Under the pieces are notes generated by a model, which did not search any database, was not told the DNA's origin, and was given only the letters and a program-made list of their open reading frames with translations. DNA of 64,000 bases from Dactylosporangium siamense (lineage in GTDB: Bacteria > Actinomycetota > Actinomycetes > Mycobacteriales > Micromonosporaceae), in assembly GCF_016862795.1 (NCBI RefSeq), contig NZ_BONQ01000050.1, forward strand, positions 1 through 64,000. The letters run 5' to 3'. A program made the translations under genes and the position numbers. This document shows positions 4,617-55,581 of this stretch, piece by piece (within the stretch, counting starts at the first letter, position 1; each line of letters opens with the position of its first letter).

Positions 4617-4700
4617 ACACGCGCGGCAGGTCCAGGATCCGGGCGCGGTGGGCAGCACCGCGACCCGGGTCACCGCACCCGAGGATTGCATTGATCGACC

Positions 4701-5231
4701 ATGATGGCTGGTGTGGAGACGCCCGTCGGATCGCGGTTCAGTGTGCTGCTCGCGGGGCTGGTGTGGGCGGTCGCGTCGAGCGCCCTGTTCTGGGTGTACG
4801 GGATGCCGCACGTGCGTGCCTCGTTCGGCTCCGGGCCGCCGGCGGGAACGGTCGTCGTCGCCGACTGCTGGGTGGGGCACGACTACGAAGGCAACGAGCT
4901 CGGCCGGTCCTGCGACGGTGAGTACACCCCGACCGGCGCGGACCGGCCGTCCGGGATCGAGCGCTTCAAGTCGAGCGACCTGCACCGTCCGGGGACCGTG
5001 CGGGAGGTGTGGAGCGCCGGGGGGACCCTGACCGAGCGGTACCCCGGCCGGATGGTGGCCGGGGGCGTGCTCGCGTTGAACGGGGCCATCGTCAGCTGGT
5101 CGCCGCTGGTCTGGCTGCTGTCCCCGTACGGGCGCAGGGCGGAGGCGGAGATCAGCGAGCTGGGGATGTTCTTCCTGCTGGCGTGGGTGGTGGTGGGCTG
5201 CCTGACCGCCTGCAGTTCGGCGTTCGTCTGA
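4701..5231 (+). CDS. Membrane protein of unknown function
   Basis: 176 residues, not recognised. A first membrane helix (about 13-34, SVLLAGLVWAVASSALFWVY) is followed by an extracytoplasmic segment with two cysteines (ADCWVGHDYEGNELGRSCDG, about residues 53-72) that could pair. A second helix lies near 113-132 (VAGGVLALNGAIVSWSPLVW) and a third near 152-171 (GMFFLLAWVVVGCLTACSS). Two adjacent ATGs (4701 and 4704) are possible starts. It converges on the MMPL gene, and the two share the terminator at 5235-5269. Confidence 0.65.
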   Translation: MMAGVETPVGSRFSVLLAGLVWAVASSALFWVYGMPHVRASFGSGPPAGTVVVADCWVGHDYEGNELGRSCDGEYTPTGADRPSGIERFKSSDLHRPGTVREVWSAGGTLTERYPGRMVAGGVLALNGAIVSWSPLVWLLSPYGRRAEAEISELGMFFLLAWVVVGCLTACSSAFV

Positions 5232-5234
5232 GTG

Positions 5235-5269
5235 CCGACGGCCCGGTCGCGTCGCGACCGGGCCGTCGG
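5235..5269. terminator. Strong bidirectional terminator between convergent genes
   Basis: CCGACGGCCCGGTCGC (5235-5250) and GCGACCGGGCCGTCGG (5254-5269) form a perfect 16-base stem with a 3-base loop. It lies 3 bases after the membrane-protein stop and 13 bases after the MMPL stop, so it can end transcription from both sides. Confidence 0.85.
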
Positions 5270-5282
5270 GTTCCGGCCGGAT

Positions 5283-7454: not shown

Positions 7455-7482
7455 TGACGCCTCCCTGCATCGTGGTTTCGAG

Positions 7483-8286
7483 TTATCGGGTCGACTCGCG
7501 ATTGAACAGCTTCTTGGCCCAGAGATAGCCGCCGAGCGTGATGGCGGCGCACCAGCCGATGGCGATGACCGCATTGTTCCCGATCGGGGTGCCCATCAGC
7601 AGCCCGCGAATCGTTTCGATGAGCGGTGTGAACGGCTGGTACTCGGCGAACCAGCGCAGGGCGGTGGGCATCGAGTCGGTCGGGACGAACCCGCTGCCGA
7701 GGAACGGCAGCAGGATCAGCGGCAGGCCGACGTTGCTCGACGACTCGACGGACTTGCTGGACAGGCCGAGCGCGACCGACAGCCAGATGAACGCGAACGC
7801 CATCATCACCAGCACACCGGCGAGGGCCAGCCACTCGACCGGGCTCGCCGTCGGGCGGAAGCCGATGAGCAGCGCGACGCCGAGGACCGCGGTGATGGCG
7901 AGCACCGCCTGGATGAGGCTGCCGAGGACGTGTCCGGTGAGGACGGAGACGCGCGCTATCGCCATGGTGCGGAACCGGTCGATGATGCCCTCGGTCATGT
8001 CCATCGCGACCGAGATCATGGTGCCCTGCACGATGGAGGTGATCGTCATCAGGATGATCGCGGGGGTCACGTAGTTGATGTACTCCGCCCGCCCACCGGC
8101 GGCGCCGTCTCCAGCGCCGCCGAGCCCCGCGCCGAGCGTGCCACCGAAGACGTAGACGAACAGCAGCAGGAAGACGATCGGCATCGCGACCAGCATCACC
8201 GTGAGCGACGGATACCGCATCATGCGGATCAGCTGGCGGCGCAGCATCGTCGCGGAGTCGGCGAGCGCATAGGACACCGTGCTCAT
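7483..8286 (-). CDS. ABC-2 type exporter permease (DrrB-like)
   Basis: 267 residues with about six membrane helices: MLVAMPIVFLLLFVYVFGG, a long segment beginning INYVTPAIILMTITSIVQG, SVLTGHVLGSLIQAVLAIT, LAGVLVMMAFAFIWLSVALG, NVGLPLILLPFLGSGFVP and a C-terminal helix. The phrase MPTALRWFAEYQPFTPLIE is characteristic of the DrrB/NodJ permease group. The ATG overlaps the stop of the ATPase gene by 4 bases (ATGA at 8283-8286), so translation is coupled. It forms the membrane half of an exporter with the ATPase just upstream and lies 28 bases before the MMPL gene. Confidence 0.9.
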   Translation of the reverse strand: MSTVSYALADSATMLRRQLIRMMRYPSLTVMLVAMPIVFLLLFVYVFGGTLGAGLGGAGDGAAGGRAEYINYVTPAIILMTITSIVQGTMISVAMDMTEGIIDRFRTMAIARVSVLTGHVLGSLIQAVLAITAVLGVALLIGFRPTASPVEWLALAGVLVMMAFAFIWLSVALGLSSKSVESSSNVGLPLILLPFLGSGFVPTDSMPTALRWFAEYQPFTPLIETIRGLLMGTPIGNNAVIAIGWCAAITLGGYLWAKKLFNRESTR

Positions 8287-9370: not shown

Positions 9371-10216
9371 TCAGGTGCGGCGGATGCTGATGTCGCCGAA
9401 GCTGGTGTGCGCGTGGACCTCGACGGTCTCCTCGGACTTCTCCGGTCCCTGGTCGATGTCGGTGAGCTCGTTGCGGACCCGCCCGTGTCCCGTCTTCAGG
9501 TCGAGCCACGCGGCAGTGCCCTTGGCGACCCCGACCGCGAGGTCGCCGGAGGCGGTGACCAGGGTGACCGACTCGCGGGCGACCCGGCCGACACGGATCG
9601 CGCCGTTGGAGGTCTTCGCGTCGACCCCGGCGTCGGCCCGGTCGACGGTGATGGTGCCGTTGGCCGCGCGCGCCCGCAGCTGGCCCGTGACGGTGCCGAT
9701 CTCGATGGGCCCGTTGGAGCTCTTGATGACGGCGGCGCCGCGGATCTCGCCGATGCGCACGTCGCCGCTGCCGGTGGCGACCTCGGCATCGCCGGCGACG
9801 GTGCCGGCGGCGACGTGGCCGACGGTGTCCGCGTGCAGGTGACCGGTCTGGTCGAGCCGGAACCGCCCGACGGACGACTTGAACCGGCAGTCGCCGAGCG
9901 CGCCGGTGCTGTCGATGTCGCCGACGGTCACGTCACCGCGCACCGAGGAGCCGGTCGGCAGCTCCACCAGCACGGCGATCGACCGGGTCTTCTTCGAGAA
10001 GTCGAACATCCGCGACTTCGGCCCGCGCACGGTCAGCGTGCCGTTGGCGTATTCGACCCGGGTCTGCTGCGCGGCCTGCACGTCGGACTCGTCCGTGTCG
10101 TCGCTCGGGCGCACCTCGACGACGGTGTCGGTGCGGTCGCCGGCGACGAGGCGCAGCTCGCCGACGGTGATGTCGATGATGACGGAGATCGGCTCCGGGG
10201 TGGCGAAAACAGGCAT
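9371..10216 (-). CDS. DUF4097 beta-strand-repeat protein (copy 1)
   Basis: 281 residues with no signal peptide or membrane helix. It opens with FATPEPISVIIDITVGELRL, then RLVAGDRTDTVVEVRP, the entry typical of DUF4097. It continues as short beta-strand repeats with Gly/Asp turns (SGDVRIGEIRG, SNGPIEIGTVTG, ANGTITVDRADAG, ASGDLAVGVAKG, TSFGDISIRRT), predicted to form a right-handed beta-helix-like stack. Molecular role unknown. It lies between the RHH regulator and the ABC exporter. A paralogue of the same architecture is at 55582-56247; the two share the N-terminal pattern TPAPI-x-I-x-D-I-x2-G and the closing G-D-I-x2-R. Confidence 0.85.
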   Translation of the reverse strand: MPVFATPEPISVIIDITVGELRLVAGDRTDTVVEVRPSDDTDESDVQAAQQTRVEYANGTLTVRGPKSRMFDFSKKTRSIAVLVELPTGSSVRGDVTVGDIDSTGALGDCRFKSSVGRFRLDQTGHLHADTVGHVAAGTVAGDAEVATGSGDVRIGEIRGAAVIKSSNGPIEIGTVTGQLRARAANGTITVDRADAGVDAKTSNGAIRVGRVARESVTLVTASGDLAVGVAKGTAAWLDLKTGHGRVRNELTDIDQGPEKSEETVEVHAHTSFGDISIRRT

Positions 10217-12210: not shown

Positions 12211-13110
12211 TCAGCGCGTCGCAGGTTGCCCCACGCGGTGGATGCCGGTGAGGGTCTCGACCCGGTCCTGCGGCATCGGCTCCTCGAGGACCTGGTGCGC
12301 TTCGGCCGATGCGTGCAGCAGCACCCGGTCGGTGGGGGTGACGACGATGCCGACGTGGTGGACCGGGCGCCCGGGGCGGGCGAAGAAGTACAGGTCGCCG
12401 GGGTGCTCGGTGCCCGGGGCGACGGGCGTGGTCGCGGCCGCCTGGTCGTGGGCGTCGCGGGGCAGGCGCACCCCGAGCCGGCGCCACACCAGGTGGACCA
12501 GGCCGGAGCAGTCGATGCCGGGCGTGGACAGGCCGCCCCACACGTACACCGCGCCGAGCAACCGGCGGGCCACCGCGAGGACCTCGTCGCCCGTCGGCGG
12601 GCGGTCCGGCACCGGCGCCAGGTCATCGGCGGCGGCCCAGAGCGTGCGGCCGGCGACGCCGACGGGCAACCAGCTCCCGGCCGCCGCGCCGACCGGCGGC
12701 AGCCGGGTGCCGAGCACCACGCCGGGCAGCACGACCCGCCCGCCCGGGGCGTCGCGCAGGGCGGTGGTCGTGGCGTCGACCACCAGCGGCTCGGCGCCGT
12801 CGGAGGCGGGAGCGGTGAGCTGGGCGGTGCGGACCCAGCCCGGATAGCCGCGAGGGTCGAGCTCCGGGGCGGGCTGGCCGGTCGCGACGACCCGGGACCA
12901 ACCGTCCGGGCGGGACTCCTCGACCTGTACCGGATCCCCCAGCAACAGCTGGGTGACGACGCCGCTGCCGGTCTGCTCGGTGGGGGTCATCGCCGCGATC
13001 CACGCGCCGATGTCGGGGGAGTCCAGCAGGGCGGCCGCATCGCTGGGCCGGGTCCGGTCCGGGGACGACCACAACGTCGCCACCGTGACCCCGACTGCCG
13101 CGTGTCTCAC
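12211..13110 (-). CDS. NlpC/P60 gamma-D-glutamyl-diamino-acid endopeptidase (YkfC-like)
   Basis: 299 residues without signal peptide, so cytosolic. Two SH3-like segments fill about residues 1-165 (TVATLWSSPDRTRP; LGDPVQVEESRPDGWSRV; WLPVGVAGRTLWAA). The NlpC/P60 domain follows from about 172: YVWGGLSTPGIDCSGLVHLV carries catalytic Cys201, PVHHVGIVV His252, and RVLLHAS His266. This layout matches Bacillus YkfC, which cuts L-Ala-gamma-D-Glu from the diamino acid of imported muropeptides. Start GTG 13110 overlaps the epimerase stop (GTGA). Pairing with an L-Ala-D/L-Glu epimerase and a peptide importer strongly supports a cell-wall peptide recycling role. Confidence 0.9.
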   Translation of the reverse strand: MRHAAVGVTVATLWSSPDRTRPSDAAALLDSPDIGAWIAAMTPTEQTGSGVVTQLLLGDPVQVEESRPDGWSRVVATGQPAPELDPRGYPGWVRTAQLTAPASDGAEPLVVDATTTALRDAPGGRVVLPGVVLGTRLPPVGAAAGSWLPVGVAGRTLWAAADDLAPVPDRPPTGDEVLAVARRLLGAVYVWGGLSTPGIDCSGLVHLVWRRLGVRLPRDAHDQAAATTPVAPGTEHPGDLYFFARPGRPVHHVGIVVTPTDRVLLHASAEAHQVLEEPMPQDRVETLTGIHRVGQPATR

Positions 13111-14207
13111 AGGTCCTCCAGAGCAAGGGTGACGCCGAGACCGGGACGGTCCGGCAGCTGGACGTGGTCGCGCTCGTATCGCAGCCCGCCCCGGACCGGC
13201 GAGGACGCGAGCCACCACACGGCGTCGAGGTCGGACACGGCGCTCGTGCCGTAGGCGGCGGCGAGGCTCGCCGCGGCGCCGACGCCGACCTGGGTCTCCA
13301 TCATCGAGCCGATCAGCGTGCCCATGTCGTGCGCGGCGGCGAGCTCGAGGAGGGTGCGGGCGGGACCGAGGCCACCGGACTTGGCGAGCTTGACGTTGAC
13401 CAGGTCGGCGGCGCGGCGGCGGATCACCTCGACGAGGTCGCGGACGCCGAACACGGCCTCGTCGGCGAGGATCGGCACGCCGACGCGGTCGCTGACCCAG
13501 GCGAGCCCGTCGAGGTCGTGCCGGGGGACCGGCTGCTCGACGAGCTCGACGTCGAGGCCGGCGTCCTCGATGCCGCGGATGACGCGGACCGCCTGCCGTG
13601 GGGTCCAGCCCTGGTTGGCGTCGAGGCGCAGCAGCACGTCGGGGCCGACGGCGGCGCGGATGTCGCGGACCCGGGCGATGTCGGCCGCGGCGGCGTCGCG
13701 CTCGCCGGCGCCGGGCCTGCCGACCTTGACCTTGAGGACCCGGAAGCCCTCGTCGACGCGGGCGCGGGCGGCGGCGGCCAGGGCCTCGGGCCGGTCGGCG
13801 GCGAGGGTGACGTCGGTCGGCACGGACAGGGCGACGCCGCCGAGGTAGCGCACCAGCGGCACGCCCAGCCGGCGGGCCGCGAGGTCGTGCAGGGCGACGT
13901 CGACGGCGGCCTTCGCGCCTTCGTTGTGCTGCACCGCGCGCTGCACCAGCCGGCCGTTGCCGGCCACGTCGTCGGCGTCGCGGCCGATCAGCAGCGGGCC
14001 GAGGATCTGCTGGACGCAGGCCTCGGCGCCGGCGACCGAGCCGCCGGTCACCTGCCACACCTGTGGCGCCTCGCCGTACCCCGCATCGTTGCCGTCGGTG
14101 ATCGAGACCAGCAGCGACTCGGCGGTCGTGGCGCGGCGCAGCGCGGTGACGAACGGCGTGTGGAACGGCGCGGACACGCGGTGCGTGCGCACCTCCTTGA
14201 TGATCAC
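13107..14207 (-). CDS. L-Ala-D/L-Glu (dipeptide) epimerase, enolase superfamily
   Basis: 366 residues. N-terminal capping domain followed by a TIM-like barrel. The first catalytic lysine pair is KVK at 159-161; metal ligands are Asp196 (RLDANQGW), Glu224 (ELVEQP) and Asp249 (ILADEAVF); the opposing lysine is in KLAKSGG (273-279). These are the residues of the muconate-lactonizing subgroup that includes YcjG and YkfB. It would convert L-Ala-D-Glu, released by the endopeptidase encoded next, to L-Ala-L-Glu for ordinary peptidases. Its GTG start is preceded by a triplicated 23-base start/ribosome-binding module (14205-14276), so reinitiation probably delivers ribosomes to it. Its stop overlaps the NlpC/P60 start. 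Confidence 0.92.
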   Translation of the reverse strand: MIIKEVRTHRVSAPFHTPFVTALRRATTAESLLVSITDGNDAGYGEAPQVWQVTGGSVAGAEACVQQILGPLLIGRDADDVAGNGRLVQRAVQHNEGAKAAVDVALHDLAARRLGVPLVRYLGGVALSVPTDVTLAADRPEALAAAARARVDEGFRVLKVKVGRPGAGERDAAAADIARVRDIRAAVGPDVLLRLDANQGWTPRQAVRVIRGIEDAGLDVELVEQPVPRHDLDGLAWVSDRVGVPILADEAVFGVRDLVEVIRRRAADLVNVKLAKSGGLGPARTLLELAAAHDMGTLIGSMMETQVGVGAAASLAAAYGTSAVSDLDAVWWLASSPVRGGLRYERDHVQLPDRPGLGVTLALEDL

Positions 14208-14276
14208 ACCAGCACCTCCTTGATGGTCACGCCAGCACCTCCTTGATGGTCACGCCAGCACCTCCTGGACGGTCAC
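14205..14276 (-). repeat. Iterated 23-bp start-site module: chain of micro-ORFs before the epimerase
   Basis: On the coding strand a 23-base unit GTGACCATCAAGGAGGTGCT + GGC is repeated three times (the first with ACCGTCCAG), then the epimerase begins with GTGATCATCAAGGAGGTG. Each unit opens with GTG, contains an AAGGAGG ribosome-binding site 7 bases before the next GTG, and reads as an 8-residue ORF (VTIKEVLA-stop) whose TGA overlaps the next GTG. The first GTG overlaps the TGA of the serine hydrolase gene (14273-14276). Each micro-ORF is a copy of the epimerase N-terminus (V-I-I-K-E-V). Confidence 0.85.
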
Positions 14277-15052
14277 AGCAGCTCCTTGCGGGCGTCCCAG
14301 GCGAGTCGGGACAGGCGGGCGATCACACCGTCCGGGGCGCCGGTGGTGCAGACCGCGAGCACGTACGGCGGCTCGCCGGCGGGCAGGACCACGCCGGCGG
14401 CGTGCCGCACGCCGGTGACCCAGCCGCTCTTCTGCGCGACCCGGGCCCCGCCGGGCACCTCGATGGCGAGGTCTTCCTGGGCGGCGAGCACGTCGAGCAT
14501 CTCGGTGCACGACGCGGGTTCGGCGACCGAGCCGGTCGCGATGCCGCCCAGTAGCCGGGCGAGGTCGGCGGCGGTGACCGTGTTGTCCAGGTCGACCGGG
14601 TCCTCGATGCCGCGGGCGGTGACGCTGCCGGTCGCGCCGGCCGCTCGCCACGCCCCGGCGACCGCGGGCAGTCCGATCAGGCCGATGAGCAGGTTGGTCG
14701 CGAGGTTGCTGGACCGCACGATCATCCGGCGGGCCAGCCAGCGTGCCGGGGCGGAGGATCCGAGCCGCCGCCACACCTCGTCTTCGTTGTCGTAGCCGGG
14801 ATCGCAGGTGTATCGGGAGCCGCCGACCGACGCGAAGTCGTTCACCACCGGCACCGGTGCGTCCAGGTCGAGGAGGCCGGCGTCGGCCGCCCGGTGCAGC
14901 GCGACCAGCACGGCGACCTTCATCGTGCTGGCGGCGTAGTGCGGCGCGTCCGGCGAACGGGTGTACGCCGGTGGTGCGCCGAGGCGCCCGAGGGACACCG
15001 AGACCAAGCCCGGTGTCCCGTCGAGCGCCCCTTCGAGGAACGACAATGTCAC
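14273..15052 (-). CDS. Class A beta-lactamase-fold serine hydrolase
   Basis: 259 residues from GTG 15052, which overlaps the dppA stop (GTGA). No signal peptide is visible, unlike secreted beta-lactamases, so it is probably cytosolic. Active-site elements are the SxxK tetrad STMK (Ser42, Lys45), an SxN-like SSN (residues 114-116), and KSG near residue 222 in place of KTG. The omega-loop glutamate is not obvious. The family covers beta-lactamases, DD-peptidases and esterases. Its position inside a muropeptide import and recycling operon favours hydrolysis of an imported wall peptide (for example D-Ala removal, by analogy to the position of YkfA in Bacillus), but this is inference. Confidence 0.82.
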   Translation of the reverse strand: MTLSFLEGALDGTPGLVSVSLGRLGAPPAYTRSPDAPHYAASTMKVAVLVALHRAADAGLLDLDAPVPVVNDFASVGGSRYTCDPGYDNEDEVWRRLGSSAPARWLARRMIVRSSNLATNLLIGLIGLPAVAGAWRAAGATGSVTARGIEDPVDLDNTVTAADLARLLGGIATGSVAEPASCTEMLDVLAAQEDLAIEVPGGARVAQKSGWVTGVRHAAGVVLPAGEPPYVLAVCTTGAPDGVIARLSRLAWDARKELL

Positions 15053-16794
15053 TGCTTCACGTAGGCGTTGGTGACCGCGACGCTGCCCCAGATGGAGTCG
15101 ATGAAGATGCCGCCGACCTTCGAGCCGTGGATCGTGAACATCACGTCGACGTACAGCGGCACGACCGGCGCGTACTCCTTCATGATCTTCTCGTCGAGCT
15201 TGCCCCACTCGGGGCCCTGCTCGCCGACGGGCAGTGCGAGGACCCGGTCGAACTCGGCGTTGAGCGCGGAGGCGTTGAGGTAGGACGCGCCGTTGTTGCT
15301 GCCGCCGTCCTTGATCGCCCGGCCGTCGTAGAGGACCGGCAGGATCGACGCGCCGCTGGGCCAGTCCGCGCCCCACGACCCGATGTACAGGTCCCAGGGG
15401 TTGTCCTTCTTCTTCGTCTCGTCGAGGAACGTGTCCGCGGCGATCGGCTTCAGTGTGATCTTGAAGCCGGCCTTCTCCAGGTTGCCCTTGAGGTGGGTGC
15501 TGAGCTCCTGGTAGGTCGAGTCGTCCTGGAACCCGAGGACCAGCTCCGGGGTCTTGCCGCCGAGGAGTTCCTTGGCCTTGTCGGGGTTGCCGCTCTTGCC
15601 GGCCGGGTAGGCCTCGTAGTCCTTCCAGCCGATCGTCGCCGGCGGCATGAGCGTGGTCACGGCGCGGGCCACCGTGTCGCCGCCGAGGGTCTTGACGACG
15701 CCGTCACGGTCGATGGCGTAGTTGAGCGCCTGGCGGATCTTCAGGTCGGTGACCTTGTTGTTGTTGATGGTGAGGGTGTACTCGCTGGGCGTGGGCTCCT
15801 GCAGCGTGCGCGCCTTCAACGCCGGGTCATTGACCACTTTGGACACCAGCGAGGAGTCGACGCCGTTGAACGACACGGCGCTCGCGTCGGCGCCGCTGTC
15901 GGCGATGATGCGGTTGGTCTGGGTGACCGGGTTGGCGCCGAACTCGTAGACGTACGCGTCCGGGTACTGGTGGCGCATCGCGTCGGTCGCCGGGTCCCAG
16001 AACGTGTTGCGCTCGAACGTGAGCCGGGTGCCGGCCTCGTTCTTGGTGAGCTTGTAGGGCCCGGAGGACAGGGGCTGCTTGTCGTAGTCGGTGCCGGTGT
16101 CCTTGGCCGGCGGCAGCGGCGCGGTGGCCGGCAGCGACGCCGCGAACGGCAAGTCGCAGTGCGGCTTGTTGAACACGAACTTCAGCGTCTTGGGGTCCGG
16201 GGTGCTCAGCCCCGGCGGCAGGGACGTCTTGTTCGCCGCGAAGTTGAACTTGGTGTCGAACTGCGGCGAGTCGGCCAGCCACTCCTGGATGTAGGTGGGG
16301 CCGCCGGTCAGGGCCAGGTCGAAGGAGCGGGCGATGCCGTAGGCGATCTCCGCCGACGTGATCGCGCTGCCGTCCTCGAACTTCACCCCGTCCTTGATCT
16401 TGAATTCCCAGGTCTTGCAGTCCTTGTTGACGTCGGTGCCGGGCGTCTCGGCCAGGTCGCCGACGAGGACCACCTTGCCCTTGCCGTCGTCCTTGTACGT
16501 GGTGAGCCGCCGCGCGTACAGCTGCGAGGCGGTCAGGCCGACGAACGAGTACACCCGCTGCGGGTCCAGGTGCGAGATCTTGCTCTGCCGCAGGACCGTG
16601 ACGGTCCCGCCCTTGGCCGCGCCGGGGACCTCCGCGGCCGGGCCCTTCGAGTCCTTCGGGTCGGTCGCGATCGAGCCGGTGGCCTGCCGGTTCTCGGTCT
16701 TCGCGTCGTCGTCGGTGCGCTTGTTTTCGCTGCAGGCGCCGAGACCGGCGACGAGCGTCAGCAGTATCAACGCCGTCAAAGGTTTTCGTGGCAT
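15049..16794 (-). CDS. dppA: Peptide-binding lipoprotein of ABC importer (SBP_bac_5, DppA/OppA-like)
   Basis: 581 residues. Signal peptide with lipobox LVAGLGAC (Cys near residue 21), so a membrane-anchored lipoprotein. The family 5 fold opens with GGTVTVLRQSKISHLDPQRV, then FKIKDGVKFEDGSAITSAEI and SSGPYKLTKNEAGTRLTFER, the hallmark blocks of oligopeptide-binding proteins. DLKIRQALNYAIDRDGVVKT and YIGSWGADWPSGASILP form later subdomains. It captures substrate for the permeases encoded upstream. Gene order (permeases, binding protein, then wall-peptide enzymes) suggests murein peptides as ligand. ATG 16794 is supported by the signal peptide and an upstream GGGAG. Confidence 0.9.
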   Translation of the reverse strand: MPRKPLTALILLTLVAGLGACSENKRTDDDAKTENRQATGSIATDPKDSKGPAAEVPGAAKGGTVTVLRQSKISHLDPQRVYSFVGLTASQLYARRLTTYKDDGKGKVVLVGDLAETPGTDVNKDCKTWEFKIKDGVKFEDGSAITSAEIAYGIARSFDLALTGGPTYIQEWLADSPQFDTKFNFAANKTSLPPGLSTPDPKTLKFVFNKPHCDLPFAASLPATAPLPPAKDTGTDYDKQPLSSGPYKLTKNEAGTRLTFERNTFWDPATDAMRHQYPDAYVYEFGANPVTQTNRIIADSGADASAVSFNGVDSSLVSKVVNDPALKARTLQEPTPSEYTLTINNNKVTDLKIRQALNYAIDRDGVVKTLGGDTVARAVTTLMPPATIGWKDYEAYPAGKSGNPDKAKELLGGKTPELVLGFQDDSTYQELSTHLKGNLEKAGFKITLKPIAADTFLDETKKKDNPWDLYIGSWGADWPSGASILPVLYDGRAIKDGGSNNGASYLNASALNAEFDRVLALPVGEQGPEWGKLDEKIMKEYAPVVPLYVDVMFTIHGSKVGGIFIDSIWGSVAVTNAYVKQ

Positions 16795-16811
16795 GTCGTT
16801 CTCCCTGGGGT

Positions 16812-17798
16812 TCACCGCAGCCGGACGCGCGGGTCGATGATGGTGTAGAGCACGTCGACGACGAGGTTGGCGGCGACGATGAAGGCGGCCGCGATCAGGA
16901 CGGTGCCCATGATCGTCGGCAGGTCCCCGTCCTTGACCGCGTCGATCGCGGTCCGGCCGAGGCCGCGCAGGCCGAACGTGGTCTCGGTGATGACGGTCCC
17001 GCCGAGCGCGGCGCCGACCTCGACACCCGCGGTCGTCACGAGCGGCGTGATCGCGGCCCGCAGCGCGTGCCGGCGCACAACCGTGCGGCGCCGCAGCCCC
17101 TTGGCCTCGGCGGTGCGCACGTAGTCCTCGGACAGCGTCTCCAGCATCTGCGCGCGGGACAGCCGGGCGTAGACGGCGGAGAAGAGCACCGCGAGGGCGC
17201 ACCACGGCAGGATCAGCGCCGTCGCCCAGTCCCACGGGTTGTCCAGGATCGAGGTGTACCGCGGGTACGGCAGGACCTTCAACGTGTAGACGAACGTCAG
17301 CAGCAGCACGCCGCCCACGAAGTACAGCTGCAGCGACGCCCCCGTCAGCGACAGGCCGATCGCCAGGCGGTCGAAGACGGTGCCCAGCCGGAGGGCGGAC
17401 AGCATGCCCAGCCCGATGCCGACCGTCAGCCACAGGATCGAGGCCGGGACCACGATGCTCAACGTCACCGGGATGACCCGGCCGAAGGTCTCCGTCACCG
17501 GTTCGCTGTTGACGTAGGAGTAGCCCAGGCACGGCGCGTCGCAGTGCCCGCCCTGCGAGGCGCCCAGGTCGCGGCCGGCGAAGATGCCCTGCACGTAGTG
17601 CAGGTACTGCAGGTACTTCGGGTCGTTGAGCCCGAGCTCGTCGCGGACCCGCTCGAGGCGCGCCGCGTCGCAGTTCTTCGGGCACATCGCCGTCGCCGGG
17701 TCGCGGGGCAGCGCGAAGAACATCAGGAACGTCAGCACGCTCACCGCGAACAGCGTGAGGATCGCCAGCAGGATCCGCCGGATCAGGAAGTTCAGCAC
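16812..17798 (-). CDS. dppB: Peptide ABC importer permease DppB
   Basis: 328 residues, GTG start 17798. The N-terminal helix RRILLAILTLFAVSVLTFLM is typical of DppB, followed by a long extracytoplasmic loop containing CPKNCDAARLERVRDELGL and a second Cys pair (HCDAPC), as often found in actinobacterial members. The binding-protein-dependent transport core follows with the EAA loop (VRTAEAKGLRRRTVVRRHAL) and TVITETTFGLRGLGRTAIDA. It forms the membrane pore with DppC. There are 17 bases to dppA and 4 to dppC. Confidence 0.92.
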   Translation of the reverse strand: MLNFLIRRILLAILTLFAVSVLTFLMFFALPRDPATAMCPKNCDAARLERVRDELGLNDPKYLQYLHYVQGIFAGRDLGASQGGHCDAPCLGYSYVNSEPVTETFGRVIPVTLSIVVPASILWLTVGIGLGMLSALRLGTVFDRLAIGLSLTGASLQLYFVGGVLLLTFVYTLKVLPYPRYTSILDNPWDWATALILPWCALAVLFSAVYARLSRAQMLETLSEDYVRTAEAKGLRRRTVVRRHALRAAITPLVTTAGVEVGAALGGTVITETTFGLRGLGRTAIDAVKDGDLPTIMGTVLIAAAFIVAANLVVDVLYTIIDPRVRLR

Positions 17799-17802
17799 GG
17801 CG

Positions 17803-18801
17803 TCACCTCGTCATCGACTTCGGGTCGAGCGCGTCCCGGACCGCGTCGCCGAACAGGTTGAAGGCCAGGACCAGCACGAAGATCGTGACGCCGGGGAAGA
17901 ACACGTACGCCGGGTCGGTCTGCAGGTAGTTGAGGCTGCGGAAGATCGTGCGCCCGAAGTCCGGGGTCGGCTCCAGCATCCCGATGCCGAGGAACGACAG
18001 TGCCGCCTCGCTGGTGATGTAGGCCGGGATCGACAGCGAGAACACCACGATGATCGGCGCCCACAGGTTCGGCAGCAGCTCCTTGAACAGGATCCGCGAG
18101 GTGCGCGCGCCGGTGGCCCGGGCCGCCTCGATGAACTCGCGTTCGCGCAGCGAGAGCACCTGCCCGCGGACGAGCCGGGCGGTGGCCGTCCAGCCGAACG
18201 CGGCGAACAGCCCGATCAGCACGATGACCCGGAACCAGCCCGGCACCGCCTCGCGGGGGCCGTAGAAGGCCAGCTCGAGGGGGCGGATCAGGGCGAGGGT
18301 GAAGATGAGGAACGGCAGGGCCAGGGCGACGTCGGTGATCCAGTTGATGATGCCGTCGACCCAGCCGCCGAGGTAGCCGGAGACGATGCCGGTCAGCACG
18401 CCGAGCGTCGTGGTGACGATCGCGGCCGCGAACGCGATGCCCAGTGAGGTGCGCATCCCGTAGACCATCTGGATGAACAGGTCGCGGCCGAGGCCGGGCT
18501 CGATGCCGAACCAGTGCGTGCCGGAGACGCCGCCGGCCACCCCGTAGGGCATGCCGTAGCGGTCGAGGTCGTCCTTGAACGAGTCCTGCGGGTCGATCCC
18601 GTAGCCGAGCTCGATCAGCGGGGCGGCCAGCGCGACCACGATGAGCAGCGCCGACACGATGCCGCTGACCAGTGCGGTGCGGTCGCGTCGCAGCCGGCGC
18701 CAGACGGCCTGCCCGAGCGACCGCGCGGCGATCGCCTCGTCGTCCCGGGCCGGTGGCTCGTCCTGCTCCACCCGCTCCGCGTCTAACGGCACCACGCTCA
18801 T
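17803..18801 (-). CDS. dppC: Peptide ABC importer permease DppC (first gene of importer operon; TTA codon)
   Basis: 332 residues. ATG 18801 is preferred over the in-frame ATG 18822 because GGGAGGTGGG lies 9 bases before it. A cytosolic N-terminal tail (OppC_N type: AVWRRLRRDRTALVSGIVSA) is followed by about six helices, the EAA loop EFIEAARATGARTSRILFKE and SEAALSFLGIGMLEPTPDFG, a DppC hallmark. Codon 6 is TTA (18784-18786), very rare at this GC content, so translation of the whole operon may depend on the rare leucyl tRNA (bldA type). No DppD/DppF ATPase is encoded in this locus; one must be supplied from elsewhere. Confidence 0.92.
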   Translation of the reverse strand: MSVVPLDAERVEQDEPPARDDEAIAARSLGQAVWRRLRRDRTALVSGIVSALLIVVALAAPLIELGYGIDPQDSFKDDLDRYGMPYGVAGGVSGTHWFGIEPGLGRDLFIQMVYGMRTSLGIAFAAAIVTTTLGVLTGIVSGYLGGWVDGIINWITDVALALPFLIFTLALIRPLELAFYGPREAVPGWFRVIVLIGLFAAFGWTATARLVRGQVLSLREREFIEAARATGARTSRILFKELLPNLWAPIIVVFSLSIPAYITSEAALSFLGIGMLEPTPDFGRTIFRSLNYLQTDPAYVFFPGVTIFVLVLAFNLFGDAVRDALDPKSMTR

Positions 18802-19095
18802 GCCATCCCACCTCCCCAGCATCGACGGCAGCGACTGTAGGTAACCGTCGTACGCCGACGATACGGTGAAGGTAATCTACGAACCCGTCGCCGTCATCCG
18901 GCGCTTGTAACGACTCTGCAAATCCTGCACCCCGGTCACCGGCGCGAAGAGTCGGTCGAAACATGCATGAAACAGGTCAATGCGGTGGCGGTCGCTGTAG
19001 GTTACCCACATGTTGGAGCAACTGACCGCAAGGTATTGACGTCAAAGATTCCTGTGCGGCACGCTGTGCCGAACCACCCGTAGTCAGGAGGTTCG
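18802..19095. promoter_or_regulatory. Divergent control region of the peptidoglycan-scavenging locus
   Basis: 294 bases between dppC and the amidase gene. Three copies of GTAGRTWACC are present: CTGTAGGTAACC at 18835-18846, an inverted copy GGTAATCTAC at 18871-18880, and CTGTAGGTTACC at 18995-19006. The first two face each other as an inverted pair next to dppC. The third contains TAGGTT (18998-19003), an actinobacterial -10-like hexamer oriented toward the amidase gene. A ribosome-binding site CAGGAGG lies just before ATG 19096. A shared regulator for both arms is inferred. I could not fold a known riboswitch here. Confidence 0.5.
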
Positions 19096-21072
19096 ATGCG
19101 CCGTCGTCGCCGCCCCTTCACCCCGACTGCCACGCTCGGCGCCGCGATGCTTCTCGCGCTGAGTGCCGCCGTCCTTCCCACCGGCACCGCAGCCGCCGCC
19201 GAAACCGACGCACGCCAGGCCGAATACGCCTCGGCGTCCACGGCCTGGGGCGTGCCGCAGAGCGTCCTGCTCGGCGTGTCCTACCTGGAATCGCGCTGGG
19301 ACACCAACGGCGGCGCGCCGAGCACCAGCGCCGGCTACGGCCCGATGCACCTGACCGACGCGGCCACCCTCGCCGCGGCGGCCCACCACGAGAATGACGC
19401 CCGCGGGGACGACTCCCGGGCCCCCAAGACCGTCCAGCCTGCCGCCACCGCGACCGGCCCGGCATTGCGGACGTTGCAGCGCGCCGCCGAGCTCACCGGC
19501 ACGGCGGAGCAGACCCTGCGCACCGATCCCGCGGCCAACATCCGCGGCGGTGCGGCGCTGCTCGCCGGGTATCAGCGCGACGCCGGCGGCCCGGCCGGCG
19601 CCGGCAGCGACCCGGCCGCCTGGTACGGCGCGGTCGCGAAGTACAGCGGCGCCGACACCACCGACGCCGCGGCCGCCTTCGCCGACGAGGTCTACGCGAC
19701 CCTGCGCGACGGCATGGCCCGCACCACCGACGACGGGCACCCGCTGAACCTGGCCGCGCAGCCCGCCATCAGCCCGGTCCGGGCCTGGCTGGACCGGCTC
19801 GGCCTGCGCCGGCCGCCGGCCCGCCCCGACGGCCTGGAATGCCCGGTCGACATCTCGTGCGAGTGGATCCCGGCACCCTACGAGCAGTACGGGCCCGGCG
19901 CCGGCGACTACGGCAACCACGACCTCAGCGAGCGCCCGCAACGGCAGCGCATCGAGTACATCGTCATCCACGACACCGAGGCCACCTACGACACCACGCT
20001 CAACCTGGTCCAGGACCCGGAGTACGTCAGCTGGCACTACACGCTGCGCTCCGTCGACGGGCACGTCGCCCAGCACGTGAAGACCAAGGACGTGGCCTGG
20101 CACGCCGGCAACTGGTACGTCAACGCCAAGTCCGTCGGCCTGGAGCACGAGGGCTTCGCCGCGCAGCAGGGCGCCTGGTACACCGAGGCGATGTACCGCT
20201 CCTCGGCGAAACTGGTGCGGTACCTGGCCGCGCGGCTGGCGATCCCGCTGGACAGGCAGCACATCATCGGCCACGACAACGTCCCCGGCACCGTGCCCTC
20301 CACCGTGCGCGGCATGCACTGGGATCCGGGCCCGTACTGGGACTGGAGCCACTACTTCGACCTGCTGCACGCGCCGTTCATCACGTTCGGTACGTCCAAG
20401 ACCGGGCTGGTCACGATCGACCCCGACTACGGGACGAACCAGCCGCAGTACACCGGCTGCACCGGTGCCGCGAGCAACCCGTGCCCGCTGCACGGCTCCT
20501 CGCCGGTGCTGCTGCGCACCGCGCCGTCCCAGGACGCGCCGCTGCTGAGCGACATCGGCCTGCGCCCCGGCGGTGAGCCGGCCACGATGCAGATCTCCGA
20601 CCACGGTGCCCGCGCCGCGGCCGGGCAGACCTACGCCGTCGCCGGCCGGCAGGGCGACTGGACCGCGATCTGGTACCTCGGCCAGAAGGGCTGGTTCTTC
20701 AACCCGCCGTCCCGTCCGGCGGCGAAGTGGTCGACCGGCCTCGTCGTCACCCCGAAGGCCGGCAAGGCGAGCATCCCCGTCTACGGGCGCGCCTACCCGG
20801 AGCAGTCCGCGTACCCGGCCGGCGTGCCGTACCAGGCGATCACCCCGCTGCAGTACACGTTCAGCGCCGGTCAGCGGTACACCCTCGGCGGCATCGTGCC
20901 CGGCGAGTATTACCGGGCCGTGACCTTCGACGGCTCCGGCCCCGGTGACTGGACCGTCATCCGCGGCCAGAACAAGTACGCACAGGTCCAGTTCGGGCAC
21001 CGCGTCATGTTCGTGAACCTCGACGACGTGCAGATCCTGCCGTCGTTCATCGCGCCCCCGGAGGGGTCATGA
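19096..21072 (+). CDS. Secreted bifunctional peptidoglycan hydrolase: lysozyme-like + Amidase_2 + SH3-like
   Basis: 658 residues. Signal peptide (AAMLLALSAAVLPTGTAAAA) to about residue 35. A lysozyme/transglycosylase-like domain follows: VPQSVLLGVSYLESRWDTNG with Glu65 as candidate acid, then SAGYGPMHLTD. An N-acetylmuramoyl-L-alanine amidase type 2 domain begins near 285: YIVIHDTEATYDTT (zinc His), SWHYTLRSVDGHV, and QHIIGHDNVPGT and HWDPGPYWDW (further zinc and catalytic residues). The C-terminal third has SH3-like repeats (LRTAPSQDAPLLSD; IPVYGRAYPEQSAYP) likely to bind wall. It would release glycan and stem peptide extracellularly. First of three exported proteins with overlapping genes. 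Confidence 0.88.
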   Translation: MRRRRRPFTPTATLGAAMLLALSAAVLPTGTAAAAETDARQAEYASASTAWGVPQSVLLGVSYLESRWDTNGGAPSTSAGYGPMHLTDAATLAAAAHHENDARGDDSRAPKTVQPAATATGPALRTLQRAAELTGTAEQTLRTDPAANIRGGAALLAGYQRDAGGPAGAGSDPAAWYGAVAKYSGADTTDAAAAFADEVYATLRDGMARTTDDGHPLNLAAQPAISPVRAWLDRLGLRRPPARPDGLECPVDISCEWIPAPYEQYGPGAGDYGNHDLSERPQRQRIEYIVIHDTEATYDTTLNLVQDPEYVSWHYTLRSVDGHVAQHVKTKDVAWHAGNWYVNAKSVGLEHEGFAAQQGAWYTEAMYRSSAKLVRYLAARLAIPLDRQHIIGHDNVPGTVPSTVRGMHWDPGPYWDWSHYFDLLHAPFITFGTSKTGLVTIDPDYGTNQPQYTGCTGAASNPCPLHGSSPVLLRTAPSQDAPLLSDIGLRPGGEPATMQISDHGARAAAGQTYAVAGRQGDWTAIWYLGQKGWFFNPPSRPAAKWSTGLVVTPKAGKASIPVYGRAYPEQSAYPAGVPYQAITPLQYTFSAGQRYTLGGIVPGEYYRAVTFDGSGPGDWTVIRGQNKYAQVQFGHRVMFVNLDDVQILPSFIAPPEGS

Positions 21073-22385
21073 GACGATCCGCAGCCGCCGTCGTGCTCGC
21101 TGTAGCCATGGCGTTCATCGCGCCCGCGACCGCCGCGACCGCGCATCCCGTCACGCATGACGAGCAGATCACGTTCAACCGCTGGCAGACGTTCCCGCAG
21201 TGGCTCAGCGGGAAGTCGGAGGGCACCTGGGCGGTGCCCGGCCGCACGTCGTACCTGAGCATCGGCCGGGCCGCCGGCACCACGTCGTTCACCGACCCGC
21301 ACACCGGCACGACCGCCGACTGGGAGTACGCCACCTGGACCTCGCCGCAGCGGCGGATCGGGTTCGGCGCCAGCGAGCTCGTCGCGTCCTGGAACGCCGA
21401 CACCCCGGCCGGCACCTGGCTGCAGGTCGAGCTGGAGGGCACCTACACCGACGGCCGCCAGACCCCGCGGTACGTGATGGGCCGCTGGGCCTCCGGGGAC
21501 CAGGACATCCGGCGCGCCACCGTCGATGATCAGAGCGACGGCGTGTCCTCGATCTGGACCGACACGTTCTCCATCGACGACGCCTCGGCCGGGGTGCTGC
21601 TGCAGTCCTACCGGCTGCGCGTCACCCTCTACCGTCAGCCCGGCTCCCGCGCCACCCCCCGCGTCTACCAGGTCGGCGCGATGGCCTCCAACGTCCCCGA
21701 CCGGTTCACCGTCACCCCGAGCGCCGGGCACATCGCCTGGGGCCGCGAGCTGGCCGTGCCGCGCTACTCGCAGAACATCCACGAGGGTCAGTACCCCGAG
21801 TACGACGGCGGCGGGGAGGCCTGGTGCTCGCCGACGTCGACGGAGATGGTCGTCGAGTACTGGGGCCACCACCCGAGCCCGGCGGACCTCGCCTGGGTCG
21901 ACCCGTCCTACGCCGACCCGCAGGTCGACCACGCCGCTCGCAGCACCTACGACTACACGTACCAGGGCGCCGGCAACTGGCCGTTCAACACCGCCTACGC
22001 GGCGAGCTACGGGCTCACCGGCATCGTGACCCGGCTGCACTCCCTGGACGAGGTCGAACGGTTCATCGCCGCCGGCATCCCGGTCGTGACGTCCCAGTCG
22101 TTCCTCGCCACGGAGCTCACCGACGCGAACTACTCGACCTCCGGGCACCTGTTCGTCGTGGTCGGCTTCACCGCCACCGGCGACGTGATCATCAACGACC
22201 CCGCGTCGTCGTCGAACGATGCGGTACGCAACGTGTACAAGCGATCGGAGTTCGAGCAGGTGTGGCTGCGTACGAAGCGGTACCGTGCGAACGGCACCGT
22301 GGCCTCCGGTAGCGGCGGCGTCGCGTACATCATCGCCCCCAGCTCGAAGCAGCTGCCGCGAGTGCCCGGATCGGACAACTGGTGA
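21069..22385 (+). CDS. Secreted C39-like cysteine peptidase (Peptidase_C39_2)
   Basis: 438 residues, ATG overlapping the amidase stop (ATGA). Signal peptide (AAVVLAVAMAFIAPATAATA) then a beta-rich N-terminal domain of about 200 residues (FNRWQTFPQWLSG ... ASELVASWNADTPAGTWLQV). The papain-like C39_2 domain follows: VPRYSQNIHEGQ, GGEAWCSPTSTEMVVEYWG with Cys at about 254, STSGHLFVVVGF with His at about 359, and VIINDPASSS with the third active-site residue. The order Cys-His-Asn/Asp is intact. Enclosed by an amidase and a glycosidase gene, it probably trims stem peptides outside the cell. Other protein substrates cannot be excluded. Confidence 0.85.
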   Translation: MRRSAAAVVLAVAMAFIAPATAATAHPVTHDEQITFNRWQTFPQWLSGKSEGTWAVPGRTSYLSIGRAAGTTSFTDPHTGTTADWEYATWTSPQRRIGFGASELVASWNADTPAGTWLQVELEGTYTDGRQTPRYVMGRWASGDQDIRRATVDDQSDGVSSIWTDTFSIDDASAGVLLQSYRLRVTLYRQPGSRATPRVYQVGAMASNVPDRFTVTPSAGHIAWGRELAVPRYSQNIHEGQYPEYDGGGEAWCSPTSTEMVVEYWGHHPSPADLAWVDPSYADPQVDHAARSTYDYTYQGAGNWPFNTAYAASYGLTGIVTRLHSLDEVERFIAAGIPVVTSQSFLATELTDANYSTSGHLFVVVGFTATGDVIINDPASSSNDAVRNVYKRSEFEQVWLRTKRYRANGTVASGSGGVAYIIAPSSKQLPRVPGSDNW

Positions 22386-23983
22386 AAATTCGTCTTCTGC
22401 TGGCATTACTGCTGGCTGGTGTCTTTGTCTCCGCTTCGCCGGCCTCGGCGTCCGCGGCTCCGGCTGCCGCCTGCGTGTCGAATCCGGCCACGCCGAAGCA
22501 CCAGATGCGGGCGATGTGGATCGCCAGCGTGGTCAACATCGACTGGCCCAGCGCGCCCGGGAAGTCCGAAGCCGAGTTGAAGGCCGAGTACGACGGCTGG
22601 CTGGCGCTGGCCAAGTCGTACAACTTCAACGCCGTCATCGTGCAGGTCCGCCCGCACGCGGACGCGTTCTGGCCGTCGCCGCTGGAGCCGTGGTCGCAGT
22701 ACCTCACCGGCGTCGCCGGCCAGGACCCCGGCTGGGACCCCCTCGCGTACCTGGTGTCGCAGGCGCACGCGCAGAACCTGGAGTTCCACGCCTGGTTCAA
22801 CCCATACCGGGCGAGCATGCCCGCCCCGGGCGGCGCCGGCACCGACCTGTCGAAGCTGCCGGCGAACCACCCGCTGGCGCTGCACCCCGACTGGGCCGTC
22901 GCCTACCCGGTGAACAACGCCGGCGGCCGGCTCTACCTCAACCCCGGCATCCCCGAGGCCCGCGCCTGGGTTCAGGACGCCGTCATGGACGCCGTCACCA
23001 AGTACGACATCGACGGCGTGCACTTCGACGACTACTTCTACCCGTACCCGGCCGCCGGCCAGGACTTCGGCGACGAGGCCACGTTCGCGCAGTACGGCGG
23101 CGGCTTCGCGACCAAGGGCGACTGGCGGCGCGACAACATCGACCGGCTCATCCGCGAGCTGGACGGCCGTATCCACGCGGCCAAGCCGTGGGTCAAGTTC
23201 GGCGTCAGCCCGTTCGGCATCTGGCGCAACAAGGCCGCGGACCCCCTCGGCTCCGACACCAACGGCACCCAGTCCTACGACGCCAACTTCGCCGACACCC
23301 GCAAATGGGTGAAGGAAGGTTGGATCGACTACATCGTGCCGCAGGTGTATTGGAACATCGGCCTCGCGGTCGCCGACTACGCCAAACTGGTCCCGTGGTG
23401 GGCCGACGTGGTCGCCGGCACCGACGTGCAGCTCTACATCGGTCAGGCCGACTACAAGGTCGCCACCGCCGGCCAGCCGGCCGCCTGGTTCGACCCCGCC
23501 GAGCTGTCCAACCACCTGACGCTCAACCGGCAGTACCCCCAGGTCCTCGGCGACGTGCACTTCAGCGCCGTCCAGGTCAGAGCGAACCGCCTCTCGTCGG
23601 AATCCATCCTCGCCGCCGAACACCACAGCCGCCCGGCGTTCCCACCCGCCTGGCAGCCGGCTTCGGGCCCGGCCAAACCGCTGCTCTTCCCGGTGATCAC
23701 CACCGCCCGGCGGACCGACGCGGGGGCCGAGCTCCGGTGGCGCCCGACGGTCAGCGGCGCCGGCCCGTTCGGCGAGGTGACCTCCTACGGCGTGTACCGC
23801 CTCGACACGGCGACCATCCCACGCGGCTGCGACCTCGCCGACGCGTCCAACCTCGTGGCCACGGTGCGCGGCACCACGTACACCGACCCCACCGCCGAAC
23901 CGGGCAAGCACTACACGTATGTCATCACCGCCCTCGACCGTCTCTGGCACGAGAGCGCCGCATCACCGCCCCGCTGGATCTGA
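22382..23983 (+). CDS. Secreted GHL10-family glycosidase (DigH/YngK-like), TTA codon in signal peptide
   Basis: 533 residues from GTG 22382, which overlaps the previous stop (GTGA). Signal peptide LLLALLLAGVFVSASPASAS. The glycosyl-hydrolase-like 10 barrel begins HQMRAMWIASVVNIDWP and includes FNAVIVQVRPHADAFWPSPL, LEFHAWFNPYRASMP, YDIDGVHFDDYFYPYPA and FGVSPFGIWRNKA, the blocks of the YngK/DigH (YddW) family; DigH cleaves denuded peptidoglycan glycan strands after amidase action. A fibronectin-like domain lies at the C-terminus (SYGVYRLDTATIPRG ... YTYVITALDRLWH). Codon 9 is TTA (22406-22408). Following an amidase gene, it would degrade glycan stripped of peptides. Confidence 0.87.
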   Translation: MKIRLLLALLLAGVFVSASPASASAAPAAACVSNPATPKHQMRAMWIASVVNIDWPSAPGKSEAELKAEYDGWLALAKSYNFNAVIVQVRPHADAFWPSPLEPWSQYLTGVAGQDPGWDPLAYLVSQAHAQNLEFHAWFNPYRASMPAPGGAGTDLSKLPANHPLALHPDWAVAYPVNNAGGRLYLNPGIPEARAWVQDAVMDAVTKYDIDGVHFDDYFYPYPAAGQDFGDEATFAQYGGGFATKGDWRRDNIDRLIRELDGRIHAAKPWVKFGVSPFGIWRNKAADPLGSDTNGTQSYDANFADTRKWVKEGWIDYIVPQVYWNIGLAVADYAKLVPWWADVVAGTDVQLYIGQADYKVATAGQPAAWFDPAELSNHLTLNRQYPQVLGDVHFSAVQVRANRLSSESILAAEHHSRPAFPPAWQPASGPAKPLLFPVITTARRTDAGAELRWRPTVSGAGPFGEVTSYGVYRLDTATIPRGCDLADASNLVATVRGTTYTDPTAEPGKHYTYVITALDRLWHESAASPPRWI

Positions 23984-55361: not shown

Positions 55362-55581
55362 GGTGATCTCCCTTCGTGGTGCCCCCAGCGTAGCGTTCCT
55401 TGCAGGCCAATGCAACGCAACAGCAGCGGATCATTGCATTAGGCGCCAGCCCGTTGCAACGAAATAGGTGTCGTGAGCTGGGATGATCCAGATGTGAAGC
55501 AATGATTGTGTTGCGAGATCTGGAAAGGCAACGTAGCGTTTCGAACGTCAGAAACACCCGGAACGAACCCAGGAGCGCATG
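55362..55581. promoter_or_regulatory. Divergent control region with CGTAGCGTT and TTGCAA sites
   Basis: CGTAGCGTT occurs at 55389-55397 and 55532-55540, each about 30-40 bases from one of the two divergent starts; the second is part of AACG-TAG-CGTT. Between them are a perfect palindrome CGTTGCAACG (55452-55461) and several TTGCA/TGCAA words (for example at 55400, 55411 and 55434). The regulator at 54624-55361 is the obvious candidate ligand of these sites, since MarR-type proteins bind such inverted repeats. Binding is inference. Confidence 0.5.

Follow-up and report, generated by a model that had tools for sequence, protein, structure and literature searches.

A divergent locus of Dactylosporangium siamense with features of a peptidoglycan-peptide scavenging unit and an operator-like palindrome on both arms

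Do two divergently transcribed gene runs in the actinomycete Dactylosporangium siamense, one for three exported cell wall hydrolases and one for a peptide importer and three cytoplasmic-looking enzymes, work together, or do they only happen to adjoin? The nine genes lie in a 64-kb stretch of DNA, hereafter the window, which belongs to contig C50; the genome (G000 among those sampled here) measures 12.7 Mb. An earlier note on this stretch had read them as a single peptidoglycan-scavenging locus. Gene order, strands and outer coordinates agree with that description, and coordinates, Pfam and sequence bear out its two divergent arms and the overlapping stops and starts of the rightward one (ATGA at amidase/C39 and GTGA at C39/GHL10). 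GTGA overlaps occur in the leftward arm too, at dppA/serine hydrolase and at epimerase/NlpC. We put at about 0.7 the probability that the locus is a unit for scavenging or recycling peptidoglycan peptides, whose arms are switched together through a wall-recycling operator and which likely belongs to a MurR/RpiR regulon.

An operator-like palindrome at hydrolase and importer genes

A palindrome near GWAGRTWAYCTWC is repeated in the divergent promoter and in its counterparts from five congeners. At up to one mismatch, GWAGRTWAYCTWC has three matches in the window, all within the 273-bp divergent promoter, where dinucleotide shuffles lead one to expect 0.03 and none of 100 shuffles reaches three; since GWAGRTWAYCTWC was derived from these promoters, this count alone is circular, and the test lies in regions elsewhere. 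The 31-bp spacing of the two sites on the dppC side is found in four of the five congeners as well (G064, G095, G044 and G115; up to three mismatches). In G044 and G095, where the amidase gene stands 12 kb and 20 kb from dppC, respectively, both promoters carry a site.

Searched as a fixed pattern with up to two mismatches in regions mostly from other genera, with expectations taken from local shuffles, the palindrome occurs in 15 of 16 regions upstream of dppD (0.47 expected) and 16 of 18 upstream of dppA (0.27 expected), and on the hydrolase side upstream of 10 of 21 amidase genes (0.86 expected), 5 of 20 C39 genes (0.76 expected) and 10 of 19 GHL10 genes (0.82 expected). Control regions upstream of unrelated genes have it in 2 of 314 cases (4.2 expected). 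The hydrolase regions come from other genera only, apart from two of the 19 GHL10 regions (G115, G081), both without a match; they are 801-901 bases long, against an average of 217 for the 314 controls, which makes the shuffle expectation of each set the fair yardstick for them. Mean GC content is 0.68 in the controls, 0.62 in the dppD regions and 0.58 in the dppA regions. Genomes of one genus are not independent, and the 16 dppD regions amount to about seven genera.

A position matrix was also carried from one gene set to another. In a first cross-test, whose controls shared promoters with dppD, 0 to 12 of the 19-21 held-out regions scored above the 98 percent level. With 592 cleaned controls, a matrix trained on the amidase promoters placed 6 of 20 C39, 12 of 19 GHL10, 14 of 19 dppD and 0 of 24 serine hydrolase regions above the 99 percent level. 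Training on shuffled promoters still lifted 3, 8 and 8 of 19 dppD regions above that level, since the motif is already present in the seed; we therefore rely on the fixed-pattern tests.

The two arms also meet physically in other genera. DppA homologs of at least 57 percent identity occur in 31 sampled genomes outside Dactylosporangium (20 neighborhoods read gene by gene, 11 by coordinates only), and four of these, from four genera, have right-arm families in the same gene run as dpp: C39-amidase-dppDFCBA in G021, amidase-dppDFCBA near a contig end in G005, C39-dppDFCBA in Catellatospora (G016) and C39-dppD-dppCBA in G019. Simple arithmetic that ignores kinship, taking 2-3 such genes in a genome of about 8.5 Mb, predicts about 0.2 cases of linkage within 10 kb. 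The C39 copies beside these operons form a more distant branch than the C39 gene of the window, at 38 to 51 percent. Together with the shared sites, these arrangements lend support to the functional link between hydrolases and importer that the earlier note had drawn.

The same motif may point toward a class of regulator. Above a threshold of 14.2, the 99 percent level of the controls, the hydrolase-promoter matrix finds sites in 14 of the 30 best-matching rpiR-murQ loci (0.55 expected), and in 12 of these 14, from nine genera, the site is at, or slightly upstream of, the position where the RpiR-like gene is called to start. Catellatospora has a site of 25.2 before a murQ-like gene and a weaker one (16.2) between an RpiR-type regulator and a sugar importer. 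The only site at the D. siamense locus for rpiR, murQ, a kinase and a sugar importer, on contig C14, is a weak one (13.8) ahead of the sugar-binding gene. It is because sites occur at rpiR and murQ that we infer a regulator of the MurR/RpiR type, most likely encoded with murQ, that would switch both arms together through the three operator copies in the divergent promoter. In G017, G019 and G042, a murQ-like gene and GHL10 are about 5 kb apart.

Predicted enzymes and the conserved trio

Pfam assigns NLPC_P60 with SH3, MR_MLE, Beta-lactamase2 and SBP_bac_5 to the leftward enzymes and binding protein, BPD_transp_1 to both permeases, and Amidase_2, Peptidase_C39_2 and GHL10 to the rightward arm. 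Read by eye, the translations agree with the earlier note in that all three rightward proteins show signal peptides, and DppA has a lipobox (LGAC); no signal peptide was seen by eye on the three enzymes encoded 3' of dppA.

Outside the cell, the amidase would release stem peptides from the glycan. The amidase part of its earlier description stands, and the lysozyme-like domain described with it is weak (Pfam SLT, E 4.4e-4, 20.2 bits, slightly below the cut-off of 21.3). The third protein, earlier called a DigH/YngK-like glycosidase, is a GHL10 protein (305.6 bits against a cut-off of 27.9) whose nearest entry in the Protein Data Bank (PDB) is Cwp19 (E 8.7e-117); DigH presumably belongs to GHL10 too. 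Cwp19 is reported to be a lytic transglycosylase (PMC6016235), and DigH cleaves the peptide-free glycan that amidases leave (PMC12288456). The window enzyme would act on denuded glycan, as either a lytic transglycosylase or a hydrolase. In the C39-like protein, C253, H360 and D377 are invariant in 11 sequences. Its predicted model (mean predicted local distance difference test score, pLDDT, 76.9) has an N-terminal beta-sandwich domain with weak matches to various jelly rolls, and its catalytic domain resembles the C39-like peptidase 3erv (Z 12.0, root mean square deviation (rmsd) 3.0, 154 aligned residues) and the pseudomurein endoisopeptidase PeiR (8z4h; Z 10.7, rmsd 2.6, 148 aligned). As these Z values are middling, we claim no function from the fold; within the proposed pathway the enzyme probably cleaves wall cross-links or peptides.

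Peptides would then be imported by the lipoprotein DppA with DppB and DppC, powered by ATPases encoded elsewhere, and pass to the trio of enzymes inside the cell. The nearest PDB entry to the NlpC/P60 protein is Bacillus cereus YkfC (3h41, E 1.5e-32), which recognizes a free N-terminal amine through the side chains of Tyr118 in the SH3b domain and Asp256 in the NlpC/P60 domain (PMC2954226). Their equivalents, Y89 and D219, located by a manual count along the alignment with 3h41, are invariant in 24 of 24 sequences, and so is the catalytic Cys-His-His set (C201, H252, H266); Ser257 is replaced by Ala, as in dipeptidyl-peptidase VI, and Ala229 by Gly. Conservation of this kind supports assignment as a YkfC-type endopeptidase, which would free X-D-Glu from the diamino acid. 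X stands for residue 1 of the stem peptide, L-Ala or Gly, as the walls of Micromonosporaceae can carry Gly in place of L-Ala there. Glycine is named among the wall components of Actinoplanes (PMC3364876), and walls of the family are described with DL-diaminopimelic acid (DL-A2pm) and N-glycolated muramic acid (PMC6113628).

The second enzyme has B. subtilis L-Ala-D/L-Glu epimerase as its nearest PDB entry (1jpm, E 1.3e-82), and its motifs LKVKVG, LRLDANQGW, ELVEQP, LADEA, NVKLAKSGG and SDLDA align to that structure. We take these motifs to hold the KxK, the metal ligands, the second lysine and the DxD in their usual roles and positions. Scores fall below the equivalog cut-offs of NCBIfam (NF041118, 177.6 of 500; NF011708, 105.5 of 343), which is why we call the gene epimerase-like. 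It would convert X-D-Glu to X-L-Glu, a substrate for ordinary peptidases. The epimerase and YkfC-type assignments had both been proposed before, and the structural matches, motifs and invariant signature strengthen them.

For the serine hydrolase, a predicted model (pLDDT 95.4) shows the class A beta-lactamase fold (4ewf; Z 31.9, rmsd 2.4, 244 aligned) and matches cyanobacterial PBP-A nearly as well (2j7v; Z 30.3, rmsd 2.4, 244 aligned). Its SxxK (S40/K43), SxN (S112/N114) and KxG (K206/G208) motifs are invariant in 29 of 29 sequences. This PBP-A-like enzyme probably trims D-Ala. The nine genes include no S66 LD-carboxypeptidase by Pfam; that the serine hydrolase might be the sole LD-carboxypeptidase is untenable, given two S66 genes elsewhere in the genome.

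How far does the layout extend? The epimerase (E≤1e-60) occurs in 73 of 121 genomes of the family, covering 27 of 44 genera, and in 9 of 246 genomes of a class-wide sample, among them D. siamense itself and two further genomes of the family. Around it we read 28 stretches from outside the genus (L046-L073; 4.8 to 20 kb, 26 genera). Of these, 27 contain an NlpC relative and 25 a relative of the serine hydrolase, with contig ends at two of the three stretches that lack the latter; the gap to the epimerase is sometimes 2 to 6 kb. None of the 28 holds any of the three exported hydrolases, or a DppA, DppB or DppC at above 35 percent identity. The unit conserved outside Dactylosporangium is the trio of PBP-A-like serine hydrolase, dipeptide epimerase and YkfC-type endopeptidase. 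Among 34 clustered loci, 22 have a TypA-like gene near the epimerase and 20 have one resembling UvrB, both named by eye.

Within the genus, the compact nine-gene layout is found in two of seven sampled genomes (G000 and G064). G095 and G044 keep the order, but other genes, spanning about 20 kb and 12 kb respectively, separate dppC from the amidase gene, and extra genes also stand between the hydrolases. In G115 and G081, amidase and C39 lie on the opposite flank of the dpp-trio operon and converge on it; GHL10 is on a separate contig. G106, the only congener lacking the locus, is unmatched for epimerase, DppA, amidase and C39 alike at the thresholds used. Separately, an RtcB-like gene (named by eye) lies between dppC and amidase in D. 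fulvum (G095) and D. roseum (G044) (L039 1380-3343, L041 18409-19836), joined in D. fulvum by an archease-like gene, also named by eye.

Table 1. Genes and operator-like sites of the locus, in window coordinates
Feature	Position	Strand	Basis
YkfC-type NlpC/P60 endopeptidase (predicted), SH3b domain, no signal peptide seen	12211..13110	-	Pfam; 3h41 match; Y89/D219 invariant
Dipeptide epimerase (enolase superfamily, L-Ala-D/L-Glu epimerase-like)	13107..14207	-	best PDB match 1jpm
PBP-A-like serine hydrolase, class A beta-lactamase fold, no signal peptide seen	14273..15052	-	Pfam; alignment; model and fold match; profile alignment
DppA/OppA-type lipoprotein (SBP_bac_5)	15049..16815	-	Pfam; PDB match 2wok; alternative start ATG at 16794
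DppB permease	16812..17798	-	Pfam and NCBIfam profile matches
DppC permease	17803..18822	-	Pfam and NCBIfam profile matches
Divergent promoter region, 273 bp, dppC/amidase intergenic	18823..19095	.	site scan
Operator-like site 1, GTAGGTAACCGTC, dppC side	18837..18849	.	pattern match
Operator-like site 2, GAAGGTAATCTAC, dppC side, 31 bp from site 1	18868..18880	.	pattern match
Operator-like site 3, GTAGGTTACCCAC, amidase side	18997..19009	.	pattern match
Exported N-acetylmuramoyl-L-alanine amidase (Amidase_2), weak SLT-like N-terminal domain	19096..21072	+	Pfam
Exported C39-like cysteine peptidase, N-terminal beta-sandwich domain	21069..22385	+	Pfam; alignment; model and fold match
Exported GHL10 glycan-cleaving enzyme (predicted), Cwp19 type	22382..23983	+	Pfam; PDB match

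A scan of 18700-19200 for sigma-70 promoters and terminators gave no match. Elsewhere in the window, two proteins encoded 45 kb apart (9371-10216 and 55579-56247) share the stretch AxDRTDTVVEVRP near their N-termini.

Points against the scavenging reading, and its rivals

Several results weigh against a scavenging unit under a common operator. The nine-gene layout itself occurs in none of the 28 epimerase stretches outside the genus, which leaves a conserved nine-gene locus without support there. The gene-neighborhood comparison that the note had named as its refuting test therefore divides the proposal: the single-locus claim falls outside Dactylosporangium, and the functional claim survives through the shared sites and partial linkages. 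Promoters of the trio genes in other genera mostly lack the site (2 of 29, 0.23 expected), so that the trio would have entered the regulon only by its fusion to dppCBA. The best NCBIfam model for the epimerase is a cycloisomerase (TIGR02534, 198.2 of 334.95), itself below cut-off. The nearest PDB entry to DppA is OppA2 (2wok, E 1.4e-53), and binders of murein peptides are only distant from it (3o9p, E 1.6e-5; 8ay0, E 9.6e-5). No gene for a DppD/DppF-type ATPase was found in the locus, the rest of the window or the congener stretches L038-L045 by tblastn at E 1e-25 with the DppD/DppF pair of one relative as query. Nor is the full path from wall to product attributed to the locus supported, as these ATPase genes are absent and the sugar side (murQ-like, rpiR-like, kinase and sugar importer genes) lies on another contig.

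The D. siamense genome has 18 oligo_HPY matches, and its nearest DppD/DppF pair, on contig C123, is 60 and 65 percent identical to a Catellatospora pair. We rejected the C123 pair as orphan ATPases for the window importer: it is encoded in a dpp operon of its own that also has permeases and a binding protein, and ATPases for the window DppABC would accordingly have to be borrowed. A dppCBA set without ATPase genes is found in two further genera (G056, G098 and G006; L110, L120 and L121), and importers that borrow their ATPases may be common in the family. Four genomes of one genus (G012, G050, G070 and G086) have 9-11 DppA-like genes each at E≤1e-110, several of them in tandem.

Other adverse points concern the sites. 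The fixed pattern is weak at rpiR-murQ, with 8 of 30 loci matched at up to two mismatches (3.05 expected) and none at one, and in the six genomes that hold the window locus the rpiR-murQ loci have no site above the matrix threshold. In G016 the C39 promoter likewise scores under that threshold (12.7), and the C39-amidase-dpp operon of G021 has no site and adjoins a DeoR-type regulator, which suggests that the regulator was exchanged in that lineage. The missing sites in the six locus-bearing genomes and the G021 case speak against the simple MurR/RpiR version of our reading. Finally, an extended pattern, TGWARNWWWNYTWCA, has 21 places in the D. siamense genome at up to one mismatch, against 20 for a reversed control, which is no excess over the genome. 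Fifteen of these places were read, and four of them are intergenic: two in this locus, one before a malonyl transferase-like gene (by eye) and one before an FG-GAP/Amidase_2 gene pair. The last, one of the two exact matches, counts in favor of our reading; the other exact match is inside a called gene.

Two observations stand beside these. In G021 (L103 797-6290), a sugar importer, a BadF-type kinase and the DeoR-type regulator precede the C39-amidase-dpp operon. The FG-GAP pair of D. siamense (L209, G000 C55:36000-52000) comprises minus-strand genes at 4389-6425 and 6455-7915 with the exact TGWARNWWWNYTWCA site at 7992-8006; an exported-looking FG-GAP protein is encoded ahead of an Amidase_2 protein that has FG-GAP repeats as well.

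What else could account for the locus? It may be that the sites are real but answer to another regulator, for instance one of cell wall stress or development, and that the hydrolases turn over the wall in growth or sporulation while the importer recovers the waste. The strongest sites being at hydrolases and dpp, the six locus-holding genomes with their siteless rpiR-murQ loci, the weakness of the fixed pattern at such loci generally and the DeoR-type neighbor in G021 all fit this account; sites at or near the rpiR start in 12 positive loci, and the two Catellatospora sites, placed as expected of an autoregulated local regulator, argue the other way, and we hold the idea possible but unlikely. 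We are more doubtful that two unrelated operons, an oligopeptide importer with peptide salvage on one side and hydrolases for cell separation or spore release on the other, came to adjoin by accident in one genus. That the arms do not adjoin in the stretches read from other genera, and the OppA2 relationship of DppA, would suit such an accident, and in Escherichia coli amidases and DigH do serve daughter-cell separation (PMC12288456). Against it are the operator-like sites on both arms and at orthologs in relatives, the four of 31 genomes in which C39, amidase or both lie no more than 10 kb from DppA, and the joint lack of matches in G106.

By far the least probable account makes the serine hydrolase a beta-lactamase and the locus a unit of antibiotic defense or sensing. 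Pfam Beta-lactamase2 and the class A fold speak for it, but the position of the general base Glu166 is Ile or Met in 29 sequences, aligned with Leu158 of PBP-A, the score for the NCBIfam class A model is 43.9, where the cut-off stands at 200, and no signal peptide was seen by eye in the aligned orthologs. We rejected its identity as a beta-lactamase for the missing Glu166 equivalent together with the lack of a visible signal peptide. Returning to the scavenging unit, its extension to the family seems to us evenly balanced: a MurR/RpiR-type regulon of the Micromonosporaceae in which one palindromic operator couples three exported hydrolase families, an oligopeptide importer and the N-acetylmuramic acid 6-phosphate (MurNAc-6P) etherase, and of which Dactylosporangium would have assembled a part, with the trio, into a divergent locus that lets the cell live on walls, whether its own or those of others.

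Known systems and meaning for the family

Linkage of epimerase and YkfC-type genes to peptide importer genes is known from Bacillus, where ykfA-D of B. subtilis adjoins dppB-E and ykfBC of B. cereus occurs with an oppA gene (PMC2954226). Unlike the B. subtilis ykf-dpp genes, the window locus lacks an ATPase and an S66-type LD-carboxypeptidase, and it has instead a PBP-A-like serine hydrolase and the divergent exported hydrolases. We take YkfA to be of the S66 LD-carboxypeptidase family. A second B. subtilis cluster, murQ-murR-murP-amiE-nagZ-ybbC (PMC5061867), resembles the window locus in having an exported amidase and a glycan-cleaving enzyme, which there accompany salvage genes and a regulator of the MurR type; that cluster holds the sugar side, whereas the window locus holds the peptide side, with murQ and rpiR on another contig. 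The window locus thus combines elements of B. subtilis ykf-dpp and murQRP, with an Amidase_2, a C39, a GHL10 and a PBP-A-like enzyme. GHL10 is common to Cwp19 and DigH, and by Pfam the window protein shows this domain only, with no CWB2. With cyanobacterial PBP-A the serine hydrolase shares the class A fold lacking Glu166, and it differs in having no visible signal peptide and in belonging to an operon with predicted murein-peptide enzymes.

Among actinobacteria, SCO4305-SCO4308 of Streptomyces coelicolor comprise MurQ, a MurR-like regulator and two neighbors of unknown function, so that a MurR-like regulator adjoins murQ there as well; the accessible part of that paper describes no wider regulon or operator (PMC5061867). 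As far as the available text of a 2010 survey goes, YkfC-like enzymes fall mostly in four phyla, actinobacteria not included (PMC2954226), and a literature search of partial coverage, over titles and the beginnings of abstracts, returned no such actinobacterial regulon or locus. Wall recycling in actinobacteria seems little mapped. Within a large mycelial genome, a shared operator may flag which of the many hydrolases and peptide importers serve wall salvage, it gives the C39-like peptidases a role to test, and it raises the question whether soil actinomycetes that make antibiotics use cell wall as food.

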